Positions 4,588-17,375 of a stretch of DNA of 37,477 bases are shown here, one piece after another. Every line of letters starts with the position of its first letter. Positions within the stretch are counted from its first letter, which is position 1. The DNA comes from a virus. Where the stretch lies: IMG/VR virus record IMGVR_UViG_3300042549_000664, positions 1 through 37,477 of that record, one strand, 5' to 3'. Position numbers and translations under genes: made by a program. The notes under the pieces were generated by a model. That model saw nothing but the letters and a program-made list of their open reading frames with translations. It was not told the origin of the DNA and made no database searches.

Positions 4588-4603
4588 GTAAGGACAATCA
4601 ACC
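4588..4603 (+). promoter_or_regulatory. Repeated early ribosome-binding module, copy 2
   Basis: Identical to the block at 4283-4298 and followed by the same ATGAAAATC start. It supports ATG 4604 as the start of the clamp-like gene. Confidence 0.75.
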
Positions 4604-5236
4604 ATGAAAATCTCTATCCAAGCCTCCGCTATCCGTGCAGCCACTATCTGCGCCGCCAAAAAAGACATTCGCTATTATTTGCAAGGCGTTTACATCAACG
4701 TTGCGCACCGTGACTATGCGACGGTATGCGGCACCGATGGCCATGTGCTTTTTGCAGGCCGTGCGGCCATTGATACCCTTGATGGCCAGCAAGCCGCGCC
4801 ATGGTCAATGATCGTACCGCTAGACGTGGTTAAAAAGATCAACAAACGCGCAGCAGCCGTGATTTTAGAATCATTACCCGATGGCACTTATTTACTTGAT
4901 GGTACACGGTTTACGCCCCTTGATGGCCGTTTCCCCGATTATTCCCGCGTGATCCCCGGCATCGGCCAAATACAACCGGAAAGCGCAAAGCCGGGGCATT
5001 TTGACTATGCGCTGATCGTACGCGGTAATGATGCACTAAACACCTACTATGGCGGGAAGATTAAAGTGTATCCATTGGAGCAACGGGGCAACGATAGCGC
5101 GGTAATGCACAACGGGGAAAATGTGGCCGTTGTCGTCGTCATGCCGATGCGAATTAAAGACGTTAACGGGTATCAAGGGTTTAATGAGAATCTGCCCGAT
5201 GCACTGGCCGCCGAGCCCGTGTTAGCTGCCGCCTGA
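4604..5236 (+). CDS. Shortened DnaN-like sliding clamp (beta-clamp domain II plus part of domain III)
   Basis: 210 residues that align by eye with the second half of bacterial DnaN. DIRYYLQG (21-28) matches E. coli DVRYYLNG, TDGH (44-47) matches TDGHRLA, and SMIVPLDVV (68-76) matches HSVIVPRKGV. DGRFPDYSRVIP (107-118) matches DGRFPDYRRVLP, and VVVMPMRI (177-184) matches the C-terminal VVMPMRL. The order and spacing fit domain II. Domain I and roughly the first half of domain III are missing, so the protein is a little over half the usual 366 residues. It probably tethers the phage DNA polymerase (13368) or mimics the host clamp. The ring stoichiometry is unknown. It is preceded by the repeated AAGGA module. 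Confidence 0.83.
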   Translation: MKISIQASAIRAATICAAKKDIRYYLQGVYINVAHRDYATVCGTDGHVLFAGRAAIDTLDGQQAAPWSMIVPLDVVKKINKRAAAVILESLPDGTYLLDGTRFTPLDGRFPDYSRVIPGIGQIQPESAKPGHFDYALIVRGNDALNTYYGGKIKVYPLEQRGNDSAVMHNGENVAVVVVMPMRIKDVNGYQGFNENLPDALAAEPVLAAA

Positions 5237-5305: not shown

Positions 5306-5818
5306 ATGACCATCACGACTCAAAATTTCACCCGTGCCAATCGTTTAGACGTAAACGGAAACCCGCGTTATATCTGCCACTTTTTGAACCTATCAAAGCC
5401 CGGGGACGCGGTAGACGGGGATATATCCGGCAAGTATGAAGCCGCACTGAAACGCGCCCGGGCGTTTGGTGGGCGCAAATATCACAACAAACAATACGGC
5501 GGAGGGATCATTTTTCAGTCATACAACACGCAGACACTATGCGACGATTTAAATAACGCTTTGCGCGGCCCCGTCGTTTGGAATGAGCTATGGGACGCAA
5601 TGAAAGAGACGCCTACCGCGTGGATTGAAACGACTGAAAAAATGTTTTGGGATATGTTGGAATGCTTACCGCCTAAACGCATGGATAGCCAAAAATTCCT
5701 AGTAGGTGAGGCGGATCACGACAACGGACGCGGGGAGGCGGTTTTTGCGTGCTTTAGGCGCGTCGGTTCGCGGGTGTTCGCCCGCTATTTAACAATTGCC
5801 CAGTATCAAAACGTTTAA
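5306..5818 (+). CDS. Early protein with DUF1419-like C-terminal region
   Basis: 170 residues from ATG 5306, chosen over 5267 because TAAGGACAATTTTATT, the shared early ribosome signal, stands directly before it. The N-terminal half (FTRANRLDVNGNPRYICHF, then KRARAFGGRKYHNKQYGGG) is polar and basic. The C-terminal half contains WDMLECLPPKRM, KFLVGEADHD and ARYLTIAQYQ, which reminds me of DUF1419 proteins from plasmids and phages. No biochemical function is known. The family link is recalled and moderate. Confidence 0.78.
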   Translation: MTITTQNFTRANRLDVNGNPRYICHFLNLSKPGDAVDGDISGKYEAALKRARAFGGRKYHNKQYGGGIIFQSYNTQTLCDDLNNALRGPVVWNELWDAMKETPTAWIETTEKMFWDMLECLPPKRMDSQKFLVGEADHDNGRGEAVFACFRRVGSRVFARYLTIAQYQNV

Positions 5819-8020: not shown

Positions 8021-8124
8021 CATGGCCTTTCCCGCCGCCCACTGGGGCTATCCCTTGGACTAAACAACAAGAGAAAGCCTACCAGCAGCAGAAGCAGAAG
8101 CAGCTACCCGCTGCCCCGTTTTAA
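8017..8124 (+). CDS. Very small Pro/Gln-rich protein, last gene of early block A (35 aa)
   Basis: 35 residues, MTWPFPPPTGAIPWTK then a Gln/Lys-rich run and PAAPF. ATG 8017 overlaps the preceding TGA. The stop (8122-8124) overlaps the last bases of the primase gene on the opposite strand by four bases, and a terminator follows at 8136. The composition is low in complexity, so translation is supported mainly by coupling and position. Confidence 0.6.
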   Translation: MTWPFPPPTGAIPWTKQQEKAYQQQKQKQLPAAPF

Positions 8125-10595
8125 TCCAACAACTCAGCCCCGTAAACTCGGGGCTTTTCTTTTTTGGACAATCGGTAAATGTCATCCAACTGCCGCTGTT
8201 TGGCGCGGATAACCTCGGCGCGGTGATCCTTAAACTGCACAGCTAGTGCGGGGTTTATGACCCACTGGGCGAAGTGCTGATTCTCTCGGCTGGCATCGTC
8301 TAGGCGCATGACCCAGCGACCCTGCTCTAGTGGATACATCGCCCCATAAATCATCTGATCCTGCTGCCATACGTTTGTTTTCTCGATCTGCCTGCGTGCT
8401 GACCGTTTGATTTCAGCCATCGTAATCATCGGCTCATCGGCGTGCTGGATGATGTAGTCGCGCAGCCATGTATCAAAGTTAGCCGACCCTGACAACTCGG
8501 ACAAGGCGTAACGGTAGGCCGGAATGATGTAGGTCTGCACAATGTGGATCACACGGGCAGCGAGATCGCCGGACACGGTGAACGAGAAGGGCGACTCCAT
8601 AAGATGAAACATAAGCATAAGGCGACCAGCTAACCCCTCGACCTTACCGAAGGCAGTCATAAAGGTATCGTCGGACTGGAGAAGCCTCTCATCGTTGCGC
8701 TTAGTGTCGTACCAGTCTTGGAACTCTTGGAACACGGCCTTGGCCTCGGGGCTTAACTGGTAGGTCATTGCAGGCAGGGCGAACACGATCCGCAGGGTTT
8801 GCTCCCACTGCTGCTTGTTGAGTAGGTAATCGGGTATCTCGACGGGCTTGCGTGTCAAGTCACCATTTAGGATGCACGGGATAAACCGCTGCACCAGTCC
8901 ATCGGCTGATAGATTGTGCAGGTTATCGCGGAACACGCGGGGCTGGATGTTGCCATAGATTGACACCGCGAGATTCTCGGCATAGATCGACCCGCTGCCT
9001 ACGCGATCCATCTCATACGGGGACGACTCGTAAGCCTTGACCCATGCGCTTCGGTCTTCGCCGCTGGCCTTGTCTGTTAGCTTGCGAACCCAGCTATTCA
9101 TCTCATCCAAGGCGCACAGCAAGCCACGGGGACGGTCTGCTGCCAAGCGTACTAGCTTCTGACTGGTAACGTCATCGACTGTGATCCGCAGGGGTACGGG
9201 CTGGGGTGGTAACTCGTGAACCACTGGCGCATCGTCACCACTGAGCATAGCTTCGGGCTTGGCTGAAAAGTCCAAGAATGCCTTTTTGCTTGAGGCATAC
9301 ATGGCCTCTTGGCCTTCCCATGCCAGTAACTCTTTGCCAAAGCGCGGACGGTCTTCGGTTTCAAATATTTTGAGGGGCGCGAGCATAGGCGCAGAACCCG
9401 GCGTTTTCTTATCTGCTGGCGCACCGATCGTCATCAACCACAGCACAGGTGGCACTTTGAAATCCTTGATTAACTCAAGCCGGGTACGCGCATCAACGAC
9501 ACCGCACACGGCAGCAAGCCCAGCGAACAGCGGGACTAAGGGATCGCAGCCAACGGTCTGACCGATCTCATCTGCACGGCGGGACAACACTTTAGGCCAA
9601 ACTGAAATGTCCATTGCTGGAGGCCGAGGCCGTAGGTCAACCAGCACCGACTTTGGGTCTGTCGGGGACTCCACTGCTGCAAACATGGATGCCACATCGG
9701 GCGTGGGGCGTGTCCATCCTGCCTTGCGTGCTATGTTAAACAGCGTACCTAATCGAATGACTTGAGTCTTGGTGGTAGTAAAACTAGCCCACTGCGTCAG
9801 AATCTCACGTTCGCCGGGGTACTTAGCCGAAGGCGTTGACCACTCATTCCAAAGACTCAACGCTTGGTCAAGCTGGTTTGTTTGTGTGCCTGCCCAGTGC
9901 AGTGCCATGCCTGTATTGATCCAATCATCACGGGGACAATCGGGGTTAATAAATTCCAAGGCCGTGCGAATCTCATCCCACGATGCGTTAACCCCTTCGC
10001 CAGTGGACAAGGTGCGTACCTTGTCAATGTCAAGCATGGACTGCCAAAGGTCAAGCAGTGCCTGTGGGATCGTGGGTAAACGCATCCAGTGACCCCTACC
10101 TGCCCAACGATAAGGCTGGCGTGTGTCGGGGTGAATGCTTGGTGGCAGTACATCCTGCACCGTCAGGCCGTTGACCGTAGCGCAGCGCAACTCGTATGCA
10201 GTTACATTGTCATGCGTGATTTTTTTGGATGGTAGCGCAAGGCCAAAGGGCATCGTGAACAATAATTTGCCGTGACCAGCCCTACCCGAATCGACGATCA
10301 CGGCATCGTTTGCATCATACAAGGCTTGCAGGTCAATTTTATGTTCAGCCAGTAGAGTGACCGTGGCATCCCAATCGTCAATGTCCAAGGCCATCGTGCC
10401 GCTGTACGCATGGGCTAACCCGATACCGTAGCCCGTGGGTAGATCATTCTGATCCTTGAGCGCATTGGTTTTTATGTTCCATCCGGGTGTGCGTGGCCCC
10501 TTTGTGCCTGCGGGGATGGGTACAAGTGACCAGCCGTGTCGGATATAGGCATCAATAGATGCAGGATGGGCTTGCACTGTGGTAGCTGTATTCAT
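8121..10595 (-). CDS. Primase-helicase: PrimPol, PriCT-2 and DUF3987-like ATPase
   Basis: 824 residues. The N-terminal primase-polymerase domain has the catalytic pair D71-x-D73 (ALDIDD), SGRAGHGKLLF (103-113) and PPSIHP (151-156). A PriCT-2-type segment (WDEIRTALEFI...DDWINTGMALHWAG) occupies about 206-290. The C-terminal half looks like the DUF3987 helicase family, with GAPADKKT (391-398) where Walker A should be and CALDEMN (494-500) as Walker B. It would make primers and unwind DNA at the fork. The start ATG 10595 has AGGAAC upstream. It is the only leftward gene in the early region, and both flanking terminators point rightward. Confidence 0.88.
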   Translation of the reverse strand: MNTATTVQAHPASIDAYIRHGWSLVPIPAGTKGPRTPGWNIKTNALKDQNDLPTGYGIGLAHAYSGTMALDIDDWDATVTLLAEHKIDLQALYDANDAVIVDSGRAGHGKLLFTMPFGLALPSKKITHDNVTAYELRCATVNGLTVQDVLPPSIHPDTRQPYRWAGRGHWMRLPTIPQALLDLWQSMLDIDKVRTLSTGEGVNASWDEIRTALEFINPDCPRDDWINTGMALHWAGTQTNQLDQALSLWNEWSTPSAKYPGEREILTQWASFTTTKTQVIRLGTLFNIARKAGWTRPTPDVASMFAAVESPTDPKSVLVDLRPRPPAMDISVWPKVLSRRADEIGQTVGCDPLVPLFAGLAAVCGVVDARTRLELIKDFKVPPVLWLMTIGAPADKKTPGSAPMLAPLKIFETEDRPRFGKELLAWEGQEAMYASSKKAFLDFSAKPEAMLSGDDAPVVHELPPQPVPLRITVDDVTSQKLVRLAADRPRGLLCALDEMNSWVRKLTDKASGEDRSAWVKAYESSPYEMDRVGSGSIYAENLAVSIYGNIQPRVFRDNLHNLSADGLVQRFIPCILNGDLTRKPVEIPDYLLNKQQWEQTLRIVFALPAMTYQLSPEAKAVFQEFQDWYDTKRNDERLLQSDDTFMTAFGKVEGLAGRLMLMFHLMESPFSFTVSGDLAARVIHIVQTYIIPAYRYALSELSGSANFDTWLRDYIIQHADEPMITMAEIKRSARRQIEKTNVWQQDQMIYGAMYPLEQGRWVMRLDDASRENQHFAQWVINPALAVQFKDHRAEVIRAKQRQLDDIYRLSKKEKPRVYGAELLD
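8136..8165 (+). terminator. Rho-independent terminator closing early block A
   Basis: AGCCCCG (8136-8142) pairs with CGGGGCT (8149-8155) around the loop TAAACT, followed by TTTCTTTTTT. It lies 11 bases after the last rightward gene and inside the 3' coding end of the leftward primase gene. Confidence 0.9.
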
Positions 10596-10961: not shown

Positions 10962-11322
10962 AGCCCTGACTGTTGCTGTCCAAGCCCTGACTGCTAAATT
11001 AGAGTCCGGCAATATAGCACCAGCCGCACCCGTTGCACCAGCACCCGCCCCTGTGGTAAAAGCTGCAATTGGTGTAGTAGCACCCGCTATGCCAGCACCA
11101 CCTGTGTTTGTAGCACCCGTTGCAGCACCAGCCCCAGCACCATCCATGTTCACTGACCCCAAGGGTTTGATTGACTACGTGATGGGCGCATACAAGGCAC
11201 TCGGCCCACAGAAGGGTGCAAGCATCCAAGGTGTGTTGGTCGGCCTCGGCTACCAAAACATCAACGATGTCAAGCCCGAGCATTACGGTGACTTGTTCAA
11301 TGGCATTGAAGCACTGAAATGA
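10939..11322 (+). CDS. Conserved phage protein with coiled N-terminus and Ala/Pro linker
   Basis: 127 residues in three parts: a short helix (MSLESKIEALTVAVQALTAKLES), an Ala/Pro/Val-rich linker (about 26-75) and a folded C-terminal unit (FTDPKGLIDYVMGAYKALGPQKGASIQGVLVGLGYQNINDVKP). Proteins of this type precede DUF2800/DUF2815 genes in other aquatic phages I know, always unnamed. The design resembles an oligomerising or tethering accessory factor for the nuclease and ssDNA-binding protein that follow. AAAGGAA precedes the start; the stop overlaps the next gene as ATGA. Confidence 0.8.
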   Translation: MSLESKIEALTVAVQALTAKLESGNIAPAAPVAPAPAPVVKAAIGVVAPAMPAPPVFVAPVAAPAPAPSMFTDPKGLIDYVMGAYKALGPQKGASIQGVLVGLGYQNINDVKPEHYGDLFNGIEALK

Positions 11323-12608
11323 GCGCACACGCCCAGTTGTCCCCCTCGAAACGTAACCGCTGGGCGTTATGCCCCGGTTCGATTCGTGAGGAAGCAAAGT
11401 ACCCCGAGCAATCGGGTGGCGCTGCTGCCGTTGATGGCACACACACGCACACACTGTTGGAACAATGCATTAAATCTAATAGGTCTGCCCACTCGTTTGT
11501 AACAATAGGATTGACTGACCACGAAGGTACATTCGTGGTTGACAAAGAACGTGCAGCCCGTGTGCAGGTAGCACTGGACTACATTGACAAGCGCATCAGT
11601 GAAGGCAACATGACCCTGTTGTCTGAGTCCAAGGTTGACCCCTCGTTCTTGTTAGGCCGTGATGACCTATCCGGCACAGTGGACGTTCAGATCATCGGTA
11701 ACGGCGTTCTTGAGTTGATCGACTACAAGGATGGCATGGCTCCAGTAGATGCCAAGGGCAATATGCAGCTTGAACAATATGCCTACGGTGTATTGGCTGG
11801 CTACAAGTTACCCGTCAACGGTGCTTACCCATTCGACACGGTACGCATGACCATCATCCAGCCCAAGTTGGCTATGAAGGGCATGAACCCGATTAGTTCT
11901 TTTGATGTGTCAGTCCGTGATCTCATGGCTAACATGGGTACAATCATTCGACAAGCTGCCGCTACCGATGCACCCGATGCGCCGCTTGTACCGGGTGAAA
12001 GTCAATGTAAATATTGCCGTGCAAAGGGTAACTGCTCTGCGCTGGCAAGTAACGTAATGAAGGAGGTGGGAATCATGTTCCAGCCAATCGTAAATCAAAC
12101 CCTAGATGTCGCACAGCAAAGTGCCGACAAAGACCCAACGGCTATGAATGACGCACAGATTCGTCAGATCATGGAAGCCGCCCCCTTGATGCGTCAGCTA
12201 CTCGAAGGTGTGGAAAAAGAAGCCCTGCGCCGATTGAAAGCCGGACAGTCTATTGATGGACTGAAGCTGGTCAATGGTCGTGGCTCCCGTGCATGGGCAT
12301 TGCCCGAGTCCGAGATCGCCGAGAAGCTGGTGAAGATGGGCATCCCTAAGACCGCAGTCTATGAAACCAAACTCGTCACGCCAGCCAAGGCTGAGAAGTT
12401 GACATGGACTAAGAAGGATGGCGAAGTCAAGCAATTGACCGAACGCCAGTTGAAAACAATGGAGCAGGAATACGTGGTCAAGATGGCTGGAAGTATTACT
12501 GTTGTCCCCGAGTCTGACTCACGGCCTGCCGTGATTCTGAACGCTGCACCGATGTTCAGTGCAGTGCAAACGCCAGCAGTGGAGACACTGCCAGCATGGT
12601 TATCGTAA
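11319..12608 (+). CDS. DUF2800 RecB/Cas4-family nuclease with Fe-S cysteines
   Basis: 429 residues. The PD-(D/E)XK core shows DGTHTH (39-44), LSESKV (101-106), GTVDV (119-123; D122), LIDYKDG (133-139; D135 and K137) and LEQYAYG (151-157). Four cysteines, C18 near the N-terminus and C230, C233 and C239 (CKYCRAKGNC), match the AddB/Cas4 iron-sulfur layout. It probably acts as an exonuclease in recombination or DNA processing, paired with the ssDNA-binding protein encoded next. The C-terminal third (from about 270) is a helical extension with KAGQSIDGLKLVNGRGSRAW, typical of the DUF2800 family. Confidence 0.88.
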   Translation: MSAHAQLSPSKRNRWALCPGSIREEAKYPEQSGGAAAVDGTHTHTLLEQCIKSNRSAHSFVTIGLTDHEGTFVVDKERAARVQVALDYIDKRISEGNMTLLSESKVDPSFLLGRDDLSGTVDVQIIGNGVLELIDYKDGMAPVDAKGNMQLEQYAYGVLAGYKLPVNGAYPFDTVRMTIIQPKLAMKGMNPISSFDVSVRDLMANMGTIIRQAAATDAPDAPLVPGESQCKYCRAKGNCSALASNVMKEVGIMFQPIVNQTLDVAQQSADKDPTAMNDAQIRQIMEAAPLMRQLLEGVEKEALRRLKAGQSIDGLKLVNGRGSRAWALPESEIAEKLVKMGIPKTAVYETKLVTPAKAEKLTWTKKDGEVKQLTERQLKTMEQEYVVKMAGSITVVPESDSRPAVILNAAPMFSAVQTPAVETLPAWLS

Positions 12609-12625
12609 TTTAATTGGAGTAATTT

Positions 12626-13276
12626 ATGTCAGATATTATCTTTTTGTCAGATGTCCGTTTGTCTTTCCCCCACATCGCAGAACCCCAGAAGCAGGTCAAT
12701 GAGGCCACTGGCGCACAGCGAATCAGCTACAACGCTGAATTCCTGATGCCTGAGAATCACCCCGGCTTCCAACAGTTCATGGCACGCTACGGCGCTATTG
12801 CTTTAGAGAAGTGGGCAGAACACGCTAACACCGTAATGCAGATGATCCTTGCAGATCGCAAGCTGCGCTGCTTTGGTCGTGGTGAGGAGAAGGTCAACAA
12901 GAAAACCTTTAAGCCTTATGACGGTTATGCGGGTAACGTGTATCTTACTGCTGGTCGTGACCAAGCACCGCAGATGATCCAAGCCGATGGGCAGCCTGTT
13001 GACCCCAACAACACGATGGCATACCAAGCCCTTGCTCGCAAGATGTACGGTGGTTGCCGAGTCAATGCCGCCATCAAGCCTTGGCCTCAAGTCAACAAGC
13101 ATGGCAACGGTATCCGCTGTGACTTGATCGCTGTGCAGTTCCTGCGTGACGATGTGGCCTTTGGTGAAGGTGCTGCCGATGCGTCAGGGATGTTTGGTTC
13201 TGTGGCTGGCGCACCCGCTGCTGGCTTTGCACCAGTGGCTCCAGCTATGCCCGGACTGCCATCGTTCTTAGCGTAA
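12626..13276 (+). CDS. Single-stranded DNA-binding protein, DUF2815 (Enc34-like)
   Basis: 216 residues. It starts MSDIIFLSDVRLSFPHIAEP and contains NAEFLMPENHPGFQQF, KVNKKTFKPYDGYAGNVYLTAG, YGGCRVNAAIKPWPQVNKHGN and GIRCDLIAVQFLRDD. This is the order of conserved segments in the DUF2815/Enc34-type ssDNA-binding family. The C-terminal tail is Ala/Pro/Gly-rich and flexible, as in many SSBs, but it lacks the acidic tip of bacterial SSB. GGAG precedes the ATG. It sits between the DUF2800 nuclease and the polymerase, which suits a role in replication and recombination. Confidence 0.9.
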   Translation: MSDIIFLSDVRLSFPHIAEPQKQVNEATGAQRISYNAEFLMPENHPGFQQFMARYGAIALEKWAEHANTVMQMILADRKLRCFGRGEEKVNKKTFKPYDGYAGNVYLTAGRDQAPQMIQADGQPVDPNNTMAYQALARKMYGGCRVNAAIKPWPQVNKHGNGIRCDLIAVQFLRDDVAFGEGAADASGMFGSVAGAPAAGFAPVAPAMPGLPSFLA

Positions 13277-13367
13277 TGTAATCGGGGGGAAAGCGAATTC
13301 TGGAGTGCGCCGTAACTAGCACAGATCAACCAGTGCAGCGAGTACCCCCACCTAATCGGTAAATGTA
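13277..13367 (+). promoter_or_regulatory. Intergenic leader of the polymerase gene with TAGCACA word and start-stop element
   Basis: 91 bases. ACTAGCACAGA (13315-13325) is identical to 3181-3191 in the terminase promoter region. Just before the polymerase start, ATGTAATG (13363-13370) contains a minimal start-stop frame (ATG TAA) overlapping the true ATG. No good ribosome site is visible. A GGGGGG run and a CCCCC run could pair at long range. Confidence 0.4.
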
Positions 13368-15218
13368 ATGAGTAATGACTACTGCTGGGATTTGGAAACT
13401 TATCCCAATGTGTTCACGATGGCAGTCGAGCATTGTGATGCACCCTTGAAGTGGGCGTTTGAGATAAGCCCGTGGCGCAATGACTCCAAGGCCATCATTG
13501 ACTTTGTGATGTGGCTCAAAGGGTCTAACGCTAGGATGATCGGCTTTAACAGCCTTGGCTTCGACTACCCCATCCTGCACACCTTACTTCGCATGGGCAA
13601 CAGCGATGCCAATACCCTGTACCTCAAGGCGCAGGCCATCATTAACGGGCAAGACGGTGACGAGAGATGGCTGCACCAAGTTAACCCCAGTGACCGCTAT
13701 GTGGATCAGATTGACCTGTTCAAGATTCACCACTTCGACAACAAGGCACGGGCTACCAGCCTCAAGGTTCTTGAGTTTAATATGCGCTCTGACAACATTG
13801 AGGACTTGCCGTTCAAGATTGGCAGCACCTTGACCCAAGAACAGTTACCCAAGTTAAAACAGTACAACGCACACGATGTCGCCCAGACCAAAGCGTTTTA
13901 CTTCAAGACGCTGGACATGATCCGCTTCCGCGAAGAATTGACGCAGAAGTACCAGCGCGACTTTATGAATCACAACGACACTAAGATTGGCAAGGACTAC
14001 TTCACCATGAAGCTAGAGGATGCCGGAGTGTCATGCTACGACTACGGCCCCAAGGGGCGCACCCCTCGGCAAACCAAGCGCCCAGTGATACATCTCAGGG
14101 ATGCCATCCTGCCTTGGATCAGCTTCCAGCAGCCGGAGTTCACACGGGTTCTTAACTGGCTCAAAGATCAATCAATCACTGAAACTAAAGGGGTGTTCAA
14201 TGACATTACAGCAACTATTGGCGATTTTCAGTTTGTGTTTGGCCTTGGCGGTATACATGGATCGGTTGAGTCCACGATTGTTGAGTCTACTGCTGATCTT
14301 GTCGTTATTGATCTCGACGTATCTAGTTACTATCCTAACCTAGCGATCAGCAACGGGTTCTATCCGCAGCACTTGGGACGTGAGTTCTGCAACATCTACC
14401 AGCACCTGTACGAGCAGCGCAAGACCTACCCTAAAAAGTCGGCTGAGAACGCCATGTTGAAGCTGGCACTGAATGGTGTCTATGGCGATAGCAACAACCA
14501 GTTCAGCATCTTCTACGACCCACTGTTCACCATGAGCATCACGCTTAATGGTCAACTGCTGCTGTGTGTACTGGCTGAAGGGTTGATGGAGATTGAAGGG
14601 TTGACCCTGATCCAGTTAAACACTGACGGCTTGACTGTGCGAGTGCCACGGGCAAACAAGTGGCTGGTGGACACCGCAGCCGCCGCATGGCAGTACAAAA
14701 CAAAGCTGCAACTAGAAGAATCTGTGTATAAGGCCATGTTTATTCGTGATGTAAACAACTACTTGGCAGTCTATGAGAACGGCACTGTGAAGCGCAAGGG
14801 TGCATACGAGTACGACATGGACTGGAGTCAAAACCACGGTGGAATGGTGGTTGCCAAGGTTGCCGAGAAGGTGCTAGTCGATGGTGCGCCGATCCGCAAG
14901 ACCTTGGAGCAGTGGCCTGACATCATGGACTTTATGCTACGCACCAAGGTTCCACGGTCAAGCTACTTAGCCGTTGAGCATGATGGCGTGACTTCACAGT
15001 TGCAGAACATCACGCGCTACGTTGTTTCAAAAAATGGTGGTAGACTGTTTAAGTGGCTTCCTCCTTTAAAAAGTAAGCCGGGTGAGTGGCGCAAGATTGG
15101 TGTTGAAGCAGGATGGGGTGTGCAGCCATGTAACGACATTCGTGATGCCAAGGATGTAAAAATTGATTATGACTATTACATTAAAGAGATTGAAAAACTT
15201 GTTCTAGGATTAGCATGA
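13368..15218 (+). CDS. Compact family-B DNA polymerase with 3'-5' exonuclease
   Basis: 616 residues. The exonuclease domain shows Exo I WDLE (D8, E10), Exo II GFNSLGFD (N61, D66) and Exo III YNAHD (Y166, D170). The polymerase domain shows GGIHGS (294-299), motif A DLDVSSYYP (D317), motif B KLALNGVYG (K365), motif C NTDG (D420) and a KRKGAY segment (475-480). Motifs A and B are only about 48 residues apart, much closer than in T4-type or phi29 enzymes, so the fingers region is short. The usual first Asp of motif C is Asn, but the catalytic second Asp is kept. It replicates the phage DNA. The stop overlaps the next gene (ATGA). Confidence 0.92.
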   Translation: MSNDYCWDLETYPNVFTMAVEHCDAPLKWAFEISPWRNDSKAIIDFVMWLKGSNARMIGFNSLGFDYPILHTLLRMGNSDANTLYLKAQAIINGQDGDERWLHQVNPSDRYVDQIDLFKIHHFDNKARATSLKVLEFNMRSDNIEDLPFKIGSTLTQEQLPKLKQYNAHDVAQTKAFYFKTLDMIRFREELTQKYQRDFMNHNDTKIGKDYFTMKLEDAGVSCYDYGPKGRTPRQTKRPVIHLRDAILPWISFQQPEFTRVLNWLKDQSITETKGVFNDITATIGDFQFVFGLGGIHGSVESTIVESTADLVVIDLDVSSYYPNLAISNGFYPQHLGREFCNIYQHLYEQRKTYPKKSAENAMLKLALNGVYGDSNNQFSIFYDPLFTMSITLNGQLLLCVLAEGLMEIEGLTLIQLNTDGLTVRVPRANKWLVDTAAAAWQYKTKLQLEESVYKAMFIRDVNNYLAVYENGTVKRKGAYEYDMDWSQNHGGMVVAKVAEKVLVDGAPIRKTLEQWPDIMDFMLRTKVPRSSYLAVEHDGVTSQLQNITRYVVSKNGGRLFKWLPPLKSKPGEWRKIGVEAGWGVQPCNDIRDAKDVKIDYDYYIKEIEKLVLGLA

Positions 15219-15685
15219 TTACACGTAAAGAATTACACGATTTATTTGAATATGACCTTAGCACAGGCGAGTTGCTAAGAAGTGGAAAGCCCGTAGGTAC
15301 ACCTCATAGTCTAGGGTATCTCAAACTTAAAATTAAAGGGCGTACTTATTTTGCCCATCGAATTGTGTTTTTTTATTGCTATGGTGAATGGCCCATTCGA
15401 ATTGACCACATTAATCGCAACAAGTCCGACAACAGATTGGAAAACTTAAGGGAGTGTAGCCACGAGCACAACAACGCAAATCGTGGGCTAATGAAAAGTA
15501 ACTCGTCTGGGTTTAAGGGTGTGCATTGGGTTAATTCCACAGGGTGTTGGAGAGCACAAGTTGGTTATGAGGTTCTTGGTCATTACAAGATTAAAGAAGA
15601 AGCAGCAGCAGCCTATGACAAAGTTGCTATTGAACGATACGGTGACAACGCATTAACAAACAAAACATTGGGGCTTCTGAAATAA
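15215..15685 (+). CDS. HNH homing endonuclease with AP2 domain
   Basis: 156 residues. The HNH_3-type core has RTYFAHRIVFFYCYGEWP and IDHINRNKSDNRLENLREC (catalytic His in DHIN). It is followed by an AP2 DNA-binding domain (NSSGFKGVHWVNSTGCWRAQV, then HYKIKEEAAAAYDKVAIERYG). This is a common free-standing homing endonuclease layout. It is inserted exactly between polymerase and VRR-NUC genes, with its ATG overlapping the polymerase stop, so it is expressed with them. The sequence looks more A+T-rich than its neighbours, fitting recent arrival. Confidence 0.93.
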   Translation: MITRKELHDLFEYDLSTGELLRSGKPVGTPHSLGYLKLKIKGRTYFAHRIVFFYCYGEWPIRIDHINRNKSDNRLENLRECSHEHNNANRGLMKSNSSGFKGVHWVNSTGCWRAQVGYEVLGHYKIKEEAAAAYDKVAIERYGDNALTNKTLGLLK

Positions 15686-15687
15686 GT

Positions 15688-15972
15688 ATGTTAGAAAAAC
15701 AAATTGAAACTGCTGTGTGTGATTACGCCAAGACCAAAGATGTTTTGGCCTACAAGTTCACCAGTCCCGCACGGGCTGCTGTCCCCGATCGTCTGTTTAT
15801 CAACAAGAACGGGACTGTATGGTTCTGCGAGTTTAAGCGCCAAGGGGCAAAGCCCACCGCTGCCCAAGACCGTGAGCATCACCGCCTGCGGGGTCACAAG
15901 GTCAGCGTGTTTGTAATTGACAACGTGGATGATGGCAAGGCGATGGTGGACTACATGGTGCGTTTATGCTGA
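15688..15972 (+). CDS. VRR-NUC domain nuclease
   Basis: 94 residues, the usual size of stand-alone VRR-NUC proteins. The PD-(D/E)XK residues are D34 (AVPDRLF) and E48-x-K50 (FCEFKR), followed by AAQDREHHRLRGHKVSVFVIDNVDDGKAMVDY, the family's characteristic C-terminal half. Such enzymes cut branched or flapped DNA and in phages often sit beside an SNF2-like helicase, as here; the helicase start overlaps this gene by seven bases. It probably resolves replication or recombination structures. Confidence 0.93.
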   Translation: MLEKQIETAVCDYAKTKDVLAYKFTSPARAAVPDRLFINKNGTVWFCEFKRQGAKPTAAQDREHHRLRGHKVSVFVIDNVDDGKAMVDYMVRLC

Positions 15973-17375
15973 CAGCAGACTTGCTTCACGGCTACCAACA
16001 GAAAGCAGTAAACCACCAATGCTCCCGCCCCAACTCGATGTTGTGGCTAGACATGGGTTTAGGCAAGACCATCATTACCCTGACATCACTGGCGCACTTG
16101 ATACGCACCCAGTACCTGCGCGGCGTGGTCATCGTTGCACCCATCCGAGTCATCCGGCTGGTGTGGCGACAAGAGGCCGCTAAGTGGCAGCACACCCAGC
16201 ACCTCAAGTTCAGCATGGTCACTGGCACACGAGATCAGCGTACCCGTGCCTTACTGCGCCCTGCTGACATCTACCTTATCAATTACGAAAACCTTGGCTG
16301 GCTTGCGGAAACCTTACAGACCTACTTTGTCAAAAAGGACAAGCCGTTGCCGTTCAATGGTGTCGTGTGGGATGAGATTAGCAAGTGCAAAAACTCGGCA
16401 ACCAACAGAGTCAAGGCAGTTAAAAAGATTTTGGACAAGTTCGACTGGGCTACTGGCCTCACGGGTACACCTGCATCCAATGGCTACAAAGACCTACATG
16501 GTCAGTTCTTGGTGGTGGACAAGGGTCAGCGTTTGGGTGTGTCTAAGACAGCGTTTAGGACACGGTTTTACCGCAAGGTCGGGCCATACAAAGAAGTGCC
16601 TTACGAGGATACCGAGGACACCATCAAAAAGCTGATTGGTGACATCACCTTGGAGATGAGTGCCGAGGACTACAACCCGCTGCCGGACTTGATCGTGAAC
16701 AACATAGAGATCGAAATGCCCGACGATCTGCGTGTCAAGTACGACAAGATGGAGCGTGAGTTTTTCTTGCAGCTTGACAGTGGCAAAGAAGTGGAGATGT
16801 TTAACCAAGCATCACTGACCAACAAGTGCCTCCAGTTTAGCAACGGGGCCATGTACCCTGTGGCTGGGATGCCTCTGTGGGAACCAATACACGACTTGAA
16901 ACTTGACGCGCTTGAGGAGATTATTGACGAAGCCCAAGGGTCGCCAGTGTTGTGCAGCTACGCCTATCGGTCTGACGCTGCCCGGATCATGGAGAAGTTT
17001 AAGCACCTTGATCCGATTAACCTGACCGACTGCAAAAGCGAATCGGCTTTGCTCAACGCCATGCACCGCTGGAAAACAAACGAGTGTGCCTTGATGATTG
17101 GACACCCTGCAAGCATGGGTCACGGGATTGACGGCCTACAAAAGAACGGTCACATCCTTGTATGGTTTGGGCTTAACTGGAGTCTTGATTTGTACGAGCA
17201 GATGAACGCCCGTGTGCGCCGCCAAGGTCAGGGTGTGCCTGTGATCTGCCATCGCATCATGTGCCAAGACACACTGGACCAAGCGCAAGCACTAGCACTA
17301 GACGAGAAGGCTACCACCCAGCAGGGGTTACGTAATGCTGTGAAACAATACAGAGAAACGAAAGAGTCGAAATGA
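15966..17375 (+). CDS. SNF2-type (DEAD/H superfamily 2) helicase
   Basis: 469 residues. Seen motifs: Q-like YQQKAV (10-15), motif I DMGLGKTI (29-36), VVIVAPIRVI (54-63), motif II VVWDEISK (133-140, DEIS in place of DEAH), motif III LTGTPAS (165-171) and the C-terminal motif VI region ARVRRQGQ, with GHPASMGHGIDGLQ before it. These place it with the short phage SNF2-like ATPases that translocate on double-stranded DNA and accompany VRR-NUC nucleases. Likely role: remodelling or annealing replication and recombination intermediates. It overlaps both neighbours. Confidence 0.92.
   Translation: MLTADLLHGYQQKAVNHQCSRPNSMLWLDMGLGKTIITLTSLAHLIRTQYLRGVVIVAPIRVIRLVWRQEAAKWQHTQHLKFSMVTGTRDQRTRALLRPADIYLINYENLGWLAETLQTYFVKKDKPLPFNGVVWDEISKCKNSATNRVKAVKKILDKFDWATGLTGTPASNGYKDLHGQFLVVDKGQRLGVSKTAFRTRFYRKVGPYKEVPYEDTEDTIKKLIGDITLEMSAEDYNPLPDLIVNNIEIEMPDDLRVKYDKMEREFFLQLDSGKEVEMFNQASLTNKCLQFSNGAMYPVAGMPLWEPIHDLKLDALEEIIDEAQGSPVLCSYAYRSDAARIMEKFKHLDPINLTDCKSESALLNAMHRWKTNECALMIGHPASMGHGIDGLQKNGHILVWFGLNWSLDLYEQMNARVRRQGQGVPVICHRIMCQDTLDQAQALALDEKATTQQGLRNAVKQYRETKESK

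Follow-up and report, generated by a model that had tools for sequence, protein, structure and literature searches.

The half-clamp locus

The window, that is, the whole stretch of DNA analysed here, is an entire virus record of 37,477 bases. Within a run of small plus-strand ORFs it carries a gene whose product resembles a part of the bacterial sliding clamp DnaN and which we call the half-clamp. The genes and signals needed for the following account are these.

4590–4594, plus strand: AAGGA, likely ribosome-binding site, upstream of the half-clamp gene
4604–5236, plus strand: half-clamp gene, 210 aa, ATG start (Pfam, PHROG, NCBIfam, AlphaFold2, hhalign)
8121–10595, minus strand: primase-polymerase/DUF3987 protein, between the half-clamp and PolB
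13368–15218, plus strand: family-B DNA polymerase (PolB), PHROG match to phrog_1252

The DnaN words that the original prediction had picked out in the translation were all found and in the same order, namely DIRYYLQG (residues 21–28), TDGH (44–47), IVP (70–72), DGRFPDYSRVIP (107–118) and VVVMPMRI (177–184). Relatives of the protein have the same start and length, and the half-clamp is therefore neither a truncation nor the result of a sequencing error. Values of dN/dS between 0.04 and 0.15 in seven pairs indicated purifying selection, and the ORF at 4604–5236 is a real gene maintained by it.

The half-clamp had been placed in the early operon of a phage with a PolB of its own. It does not share an operon with PolB, as the minus-strand primase gene at 8121–10595 intervenes. 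The region 11319–17375 encodes an exonuclease, an ssDNA-binding protein, PolB, an HNH protein and a SNF2-type helicase. Directly downstream of the half-clamp, positions 5306–5818 (plus strand) match the Staphylococcus phage TreK family (PF24229, E 2.6e-17).

Relationship to DnaN

The central DnaN domain was the sole Pfam match of the window protein (domain II, PF02767, E 4.5e-5), at 24.2 bits versus a curated cut-off of 27 bits, and PF02767 was matched by 45 of the 54 members of the family (E ≤ 0.01). The DnaN model of NCBIfam was matched at profile positions 135–249 (E 1.8e-8), although the score of 33.7 bits did not reach the equivalog cut-off of 137.65 set for a full clamp. A profile made from 54 relatives recovered the solved beta clamps of the PDB with a best E of 1.2e-26, the C-terminal stretch being weak when taken alone (i-Evalue 2.4). 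When an alignment of 54 non-redundant half-clamps, window included (alignment A2), was compared by hhalign with nine full-length or nearly full-length clamps, residues 1–184 of the window protein corresponded to E. coli DnaN 126–366 with a probability of 99.9. Phrog_3007 (PHROG 3007) was matched over its whole length (E 1.4e-30, residues 1–184 to profile positions 1–186 of 190), and the processivity-factor family phrog_947 more weakly (E 4.7e-7). A DnaN match in a profile search had been set beforehand as a check of the prediction, and it was obtained below the cut-off with PF02767 and clearly with hhalign. As judged from these profiles, the similarity to DnaN is beyond chance.

The alignment divides the protein into three parts.

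4604–4966, plus strand: DnaN domain II, modules IIa and IIb, residues 1–121, aligned to E. coli beta 126–252
4979–5155, plus strand: second half of domain III, module IIIb, residues 126–184, aligned to E. coli beta 311–366
5156–5233, plus strand: C-terminal tail past the end of DnaN, residues 185–210, modelled with lower confidence and lacking in the Bas81 and pYD38-A relatives

There is a single large gap, E. coli 257–310, which is the first half of domain III; the earlier statement that about half of this domain is absent was thus exact. The other gaps are small (1–5 residues). Three of the six beta-alpha-beta-beta-beta modules of DnaN are present (IIa, IIb and IIIb), so that each half-clamp has one complete clamp domain and one module, compared with the two complete domains of the PCNA/gp45 type.

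The window protein did not match the complete domain III (PF02768). Partial matches below the cut-off were found in the relatives from pYD38-A (profile positions 64–121 of 121) and Bas81 (68–121), and these positions independently support a break inside domain III. In a longer clamp of a phage contig (L112) PF02768 matched at positions 2–106, and the half-clamp profile aligned to the full-length clamp L167 in two stretches, split around the same region as E. coli 257–310. Domain I (PF00712) was not seen in the window protein, the best hhalign match being confined to E. coli 126–366, and it matched only one of the 54 family members, weakly (E 0.004). As a separate gene it was found in none of 10 records, by a search that also missed the 331-aa L112 clamp, so that a split clamp with domain I encoded elsewhere is conceivable. 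The L112 clamp (L112:7680–8672), in which PF02768 covers most of domain III, is a useful outgroup; on visual inspection its N-terminal part looks like a highly divergent domain I that PF00712 fails to detect. When half-clamps and E. coli DnaN were aligned directly with MAFFT, the final module was wrongly set against the first half of domain III. This placement was rejected and replaced by that from the profile–profile alignment, the PF02768 positions and the two-stretch match to L167.

The AlphaFold2 model of the window protein had a mean pLDDT of 92.4 and a pTM of 0.86, and its residues 1–184 superposed on E. coli beta 126–366 over 168–171 residues at about 2.5 Å (Z about 14–16). Foldseek gave E values of about 1e-8 with moderate query TM-scores, 0.52–0.65 among the 50 matches listed. 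A shorter homologue of 179 aa (L139) was modelled with a pLDDT of 86.2 and a pTM of 0.84 and superposed on the same range of E. coli beta over about 165 residues at about 3 Å (Z 12–13.6). Both models thus agreed in the fold check, and the proposed make-up, domain II plus the end of domain III with domain I missing, is borne out by profiles, predicted fold and curated models. We consider it close to certain, from sequence and model together, that the half-clamp is a DnaN derivative built from domain II and the latter half of domain III.

Pocket, interface and charge

The pocket of DnaN receives the clamp-binding motifs (CBMs) of polymerases, the clamp loader and repair proteins. The residues of this pocket and of the dimer interface in E. 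coli DnaN were taken from the accessible part of a review (PMC11139829). By the profile alignment, the main pocket stretches of the window protein are the following.

4670–4681, plus strand: R23 to L26 (E. coli R152, L155)
4733–4750, plus strand: T44 to L49 (E. coli T172, G174, H175, R176, L177)
4934–4951, plus strand: P111, R115, V116 (E. coli P242, R246, V247)
5135–5152, plus strand: V178, M180, P181, M182, R183 (E. coli V360, M362, P363, M364, R365)

Counterparts are present in the alignment for all 18 positions of this predicted pocket. In E. coli numbering, R152, L155, T172, G174 and P242 were identical in all 54 members, and M362 in 53, P363 in 51, R365 in 50, R246 in 49 and H175 in 47. 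Other positions were partly kept (R176 in 22% of the 54 members, Y323 in 48%, N320 in 52%, L177 in 61% and M364 in 63%), and V344 was identical in none. The pocket set averaged 3.38 bits versus 1.93 in the 158 other columns, a value that no random set reached in 20,000 draws. When columns close to the search patterns were excluded, the remaining 15 positions averaged 3.19 versus 1.78 bits (0 of 20,000 draws). The pocket is also conserved in full-length clamps, according to the portion of PMC11139829 available. Its conservation therefore shows that the predicted pocket is used, without indicating in what way.

The interface has fared differently from the pocket. The residues on the domain III side, I272, L273, E298 and E304, all fall inside the deleted E. 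coli 257–310, and domain I, the bearer of the partner surface, is missing. Because of these two losses we infer that the half-clamp would not form the canonical two-subunit ring, which supports the earlier expectation that an ordinary dimeric ring could not be made.

With the stretches roughly matched and only nine full-length or nearly full-length clamps set against 54 half-clamps, the net charge of helix IIa was above zero in 53 of the half-clamps (mean +2.6) and ranged from −3 to +2 in the full clamps. Helix IIb was not more basic (mean +1.3 in both groups), and helix IIIb was slightly acidic in half-clamps (−0.6). The orientation of these helices, with IIa on the DNA side, is carried over from DnaN. 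The overall charge of the window protein is about neutral (0).

Distribution and origin of the family

The half-clamp is no isolated case and is part of a widespread family. By tblastn, the window protein found relatives in 111 of 50,697 phage records (E ≤ 0.01) and Bcep781 gp15 in 204 of the same 50,697 (E ≤ 1e-5), counts that include some duplicates and possibly full-length clamps. Among viral contigs, a relative, half-size or full, was present in at least 507 of the 600 stretches examined, and these too may include full-length clamps and duplicate records. A profile search yielded 151 ORFs in 153 loci, five of the 151 being left out as the motif or start was missing. A rule-based start and a stop were available for 142, of which 136 were 170–219 aa and six longer; some contigs appear twice, and the lengths depend on the rule, by which the start is the codon near 20 residues before the DIRYYL motif. 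A search of predicted viral protein structures returned matches that include proteins of about 160–270 aa, either unnamed or labelled 'beta chain, central'.

In a tree of domain II, built on 126 columns with the domain end set by length in eight of the 67 rows, one branch parts 56 half-clamps from 11 full-length clamps (99/88; 99% of 200 bootstrap trees). This fits, without proving it, that the short form arose once.

PHROG 3007 includes Bcep781 gp15, BcepC6B gp31, EP23 p08, Bas81_0046 and pYD38-A VPRG_00008. The family profile found the half-clamp in Bas81, pYD38-A, EP23 and BcepC6B, and the Bcep781 member was aligned separately. In comparison with the Bas81 and pYD38-A members, the branch of the window has an extra C-terminal tail of about 25 residues. 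Many members of the family are labelled 'RusA-like Holliday junction resolvase' (PHROG 3007, RefSeq) and others 'DNA polymerase III beta subunit', while the Bcep781 record describes gp15 (L013:10433–11014) as a 'DNA Pol III b subunit fragment'.

Neighbouring genes and polymerases

The neighbour set covered 47 of 53 loci, six having been dropped for gene-model mismatch; neighbouring genes were called as greedy ORFs no shorter than 80 aa, and 25 of 121 families are covered by the PHROG tally. The pairing with PolB had been stressed, but a functional link between the two is not supported. Among 33 carriers of the half-clamp (34 records minus DSL-LC05), many of whose records are fragments, phrog_1252 PolB was found in three, PF00476 PolA in 10 and either of them in 12, and neither was found in 21. 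DSL-LC05 was the only phage record found near the first 20 kb of the window; the match, 76% identical and covering 8% of the query, lies in the PolB gene. It is a complete circular genome with the same replication/PolB module and has no half-clamp.

Pol III alpha (PF07733) was found in none of the 34 records, the controls being matched, and the search with PF03175 gave no match anywhere, its control included. The complete phages Bas81 and pYD38-A showed no polymerase in the phrog_1252, PF00476 and PF07733 searches or in their annotation, and the Bas81-like viral contigs L135 and L139 had no match to any of these three families. All four probably depend on the host Pol III.

At three loci (L098, L099 and L100) the half-clamp begins 4 bases past the stop of a PolA-type gene, with its AAGGA falling inside the end of that gene, and this arrangement suggests translational coupling of the two genes. 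The upstream gene is a PF00476 match in L098 and L100, with the coordinates compared by hand, and that in L099 shares C-terminal sequence with these PolAs. In BcepC6B a DNA polymerase gene is followed by the half-clamp as the next gene. Head genes of the opposite orientation surround the Bcep781 half-clamp, which lies alone, and that of EP23, which is accompanied by one other gene; a direct role in replication is therefore not general.

CBM-like motifs in the phage proteins

In the proteins of seven carriers, four of them covered only in part, seven CBM-like motifs were seen versus 3.9 expected from shuffles. The numbers seen and expected were 1 and 0.7 in the window, 2 and 0.8 in Bas81, 1 and 1.0 in pYD38-A, 0 and 0.5 in EP23, 0 and 0.5 in BcepC6B, 1 and 0.2 in Bcep781, and 2 and 0.2 in Vibrio phage 1.022.O; DSL-LC05, which has no half-clamp, gave 1 and 0.8. 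There was no clear excess in the carriers, and no such motif was found in the three neighbouring PolAs of L098–L100 or in BcepC6B gp32. The PolB of the window has a clamp-binding-like QIDLF at residue 114, which also occurs in the PolBs of DSL-LC05 (no half-clamp) and Vibrio phage 1.022.O (with half-clamp) and which presumably falls between exonuclease motifs. As a link between half-clamp and PolB it was dropped, given its presence in DSL-LC05 and its position. A textbook clamp-binding motif, QLSLF, was noticed at residue 443 of the Bcep781 portal protein (L013:11952–14039, minus strand), probably by chance.

Discussion

Sliding clamps are taught as closed six-domain rings. The half-clamps form a conserved and selected family with the pocket and without the ring interface, and this raises the question of whether a clamp can work without that ring. 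Like DnaN (E. coli, 366 aa), the half-clamp keeps domain II, the second half of domain III and all the pocket positions; unlike it, the half-clamp lacks domain I, the first half of domain III and the named interface residues, and has a more basic helix IIa. E. coli beta*, a UV-induced short form of DnaN with domains II and III, is likewise a shortened DnaN without domain I, but it retains the whole of domain III. Like the two-domain trimeric clamps T4 gp45 and PCNA, the half-clamp has fewer domains per subunit than DnaN, and a six-domain ring is possible in principle; unlike them, it has one and a half domains and matches DnaN in sequence. The herpesvirus proteins UL42 and UL44 are described in the accessible text of PMC9690074 as positively charged, non-ring proteins that bind DNA and stay with the polymerase. 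UL42 is a monomer and UL44 a C-shaped dimer, and their likeness to the half-clamp, which is about neutral overall, would lie in the proposed mode of action only. Such an open DNA-binding clip was left out of the original prediction, in which a higher-order ring, a decoy and a partner of the host clamp were named, and these three options were thus not exhaustive.

We tentatively favour, with somewhat less than even confidence, the view that the half-clamp is a free-standing, non-canonical clamp, which would bind CBM proteins, could also touch DNA and would need no canonical ring. This reading is based on the conservation of the pocket and the loss of the interface, on a first helix that is basic, and on use alongside PolA, PolB or no detected polymerase. 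The half-clamp would capture CBM proteins of the host, which are the obvious candidate partners, or those of the phage where such exist, and would hold them near the phage DNA through the side of domain II with the basic first helix. It may serve the phage polymerase in some phages and the host polymerase in those without a detected one. Several observations argue against a free-standing clamp. The identity of the pocket is incomplete (V344 in 0 of 54, R176 in 22%); DSL-LC05 has this PolB module and does without a half-clamp; the neighbouring PolAs and BcepC6B gp32 have no CBM-like motif, and the carriers no clear excess of them; 21 of the 33 carriers were without phrog_1252 or PF00476, and the loci of Bcep781 and EP23 lie among head genes; and helix IIb does not differ in charge from its counterpart in full clamps, with IIIb slightly acidic. 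In more general terms, it is conceivable, at a little short of an even chance, that many phages share a third clamp architecture, in which three modules, the pocket and the basic DNA-side helix have been kept and the interface dropped, in the form of either an open clip or a four-subunit, twelve-module ring.

Known clamp rings have six domains, that is, twelve beta-alpha-beta-beta-beta modules. The half-clamp, with three modules per subunit, could be a true sliding clamp of new stoichiometry, in which four subunits make up the twelve modules and the ring could close, for example, by two IIIb modules pairing into one domain. The more basic helix IIa and the closeness to PolA genes at three loci agree with this, as does the statement, in the available part of PMC9690074, that a ring has six domains irrespective of how many subunits form it. 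However, a four-subunit ring is weakened because both known interface elements are gone and the helix of IIIb is not basic, and we regard it as somewhat unlikely. A kept pocket with a lost ring interface would also suit a decoy that sequesters host CBM proteins, above all clamp-loader delta or Pol III, and thereby halts replication or repair in the host. According to the accessible text of PMC11139829, E. coli delta has an about 50-fold tighter hold on a monomeric DnaN mutant than on the dimer. The gene lies outside replication modules in some phages (Bcep781, EP23), and the motif count of 7 versus 3.9 expected is no clear excess. A strong decoy, however, would block the host Pol III on which Bas81, pYD38-A, L135 and L139 probably depend, and the half-clamp adjoins a phage polymerase in L098–L100 and BcepC6B. 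The decoy is weakened because these carriers seem dependent on host Pol III, and we think it an unlikely explanation.

It is very improbable that the half-clamp forms a heteromer with the host DnaN ring, by insertion or as a cap, changing the clients of the ring or opening it: what speaks for this is shared ancestry, whereas both canonical pairing surfaces are missing. The reading as a RusA-like Holliday-junction resolvase, which comes from the names in PHROG 3007 and RefSeq, is almost certainly wrong. The RusA family PF05866 was not matched by the window protein at E ≤ 10, by any of the 54 family members (E ≤ 0.01) or by any of the four named phage members (E ≤ 0.1), whereas a separate protein of Bcep781, gp22 (L013:18758–19144), matched it as a positive control with an E of 1.1e-16. 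The true RusA of Bcep781 is gp22.

The RusA-like label on PHROG 3007 is apparently a misannotation, which RefSeq phage records have taken over. The finding of the half-clamp corrects this label, which hides the clamp make-up in many phage records. The protein as such is not new, as it is already in PHROGs and in annotations. Its exact make-up, one domain and a half that retain the pocket and lack the interface, was not found described in the literature searched (titles and the starts of abstracts). In the available part of the genome paper PMC9825357, Gp04c of phage fBC-Eco01 is termed a sliding clamp. As a small natural pocket protein, the half-clamp is also a possible bait for clamp-binding proteins.

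A search of genome contigs gave 42 pattern matches, in which no host of the window virus was found. Four relatives were among them, two half-size and two full-length. The two half-size clamps in bacterial assemblies, on a contig of an Omnitrophota MAG (L166) and a contig of Yersinia similis (L168), probably belong to prophages or phage contigs.
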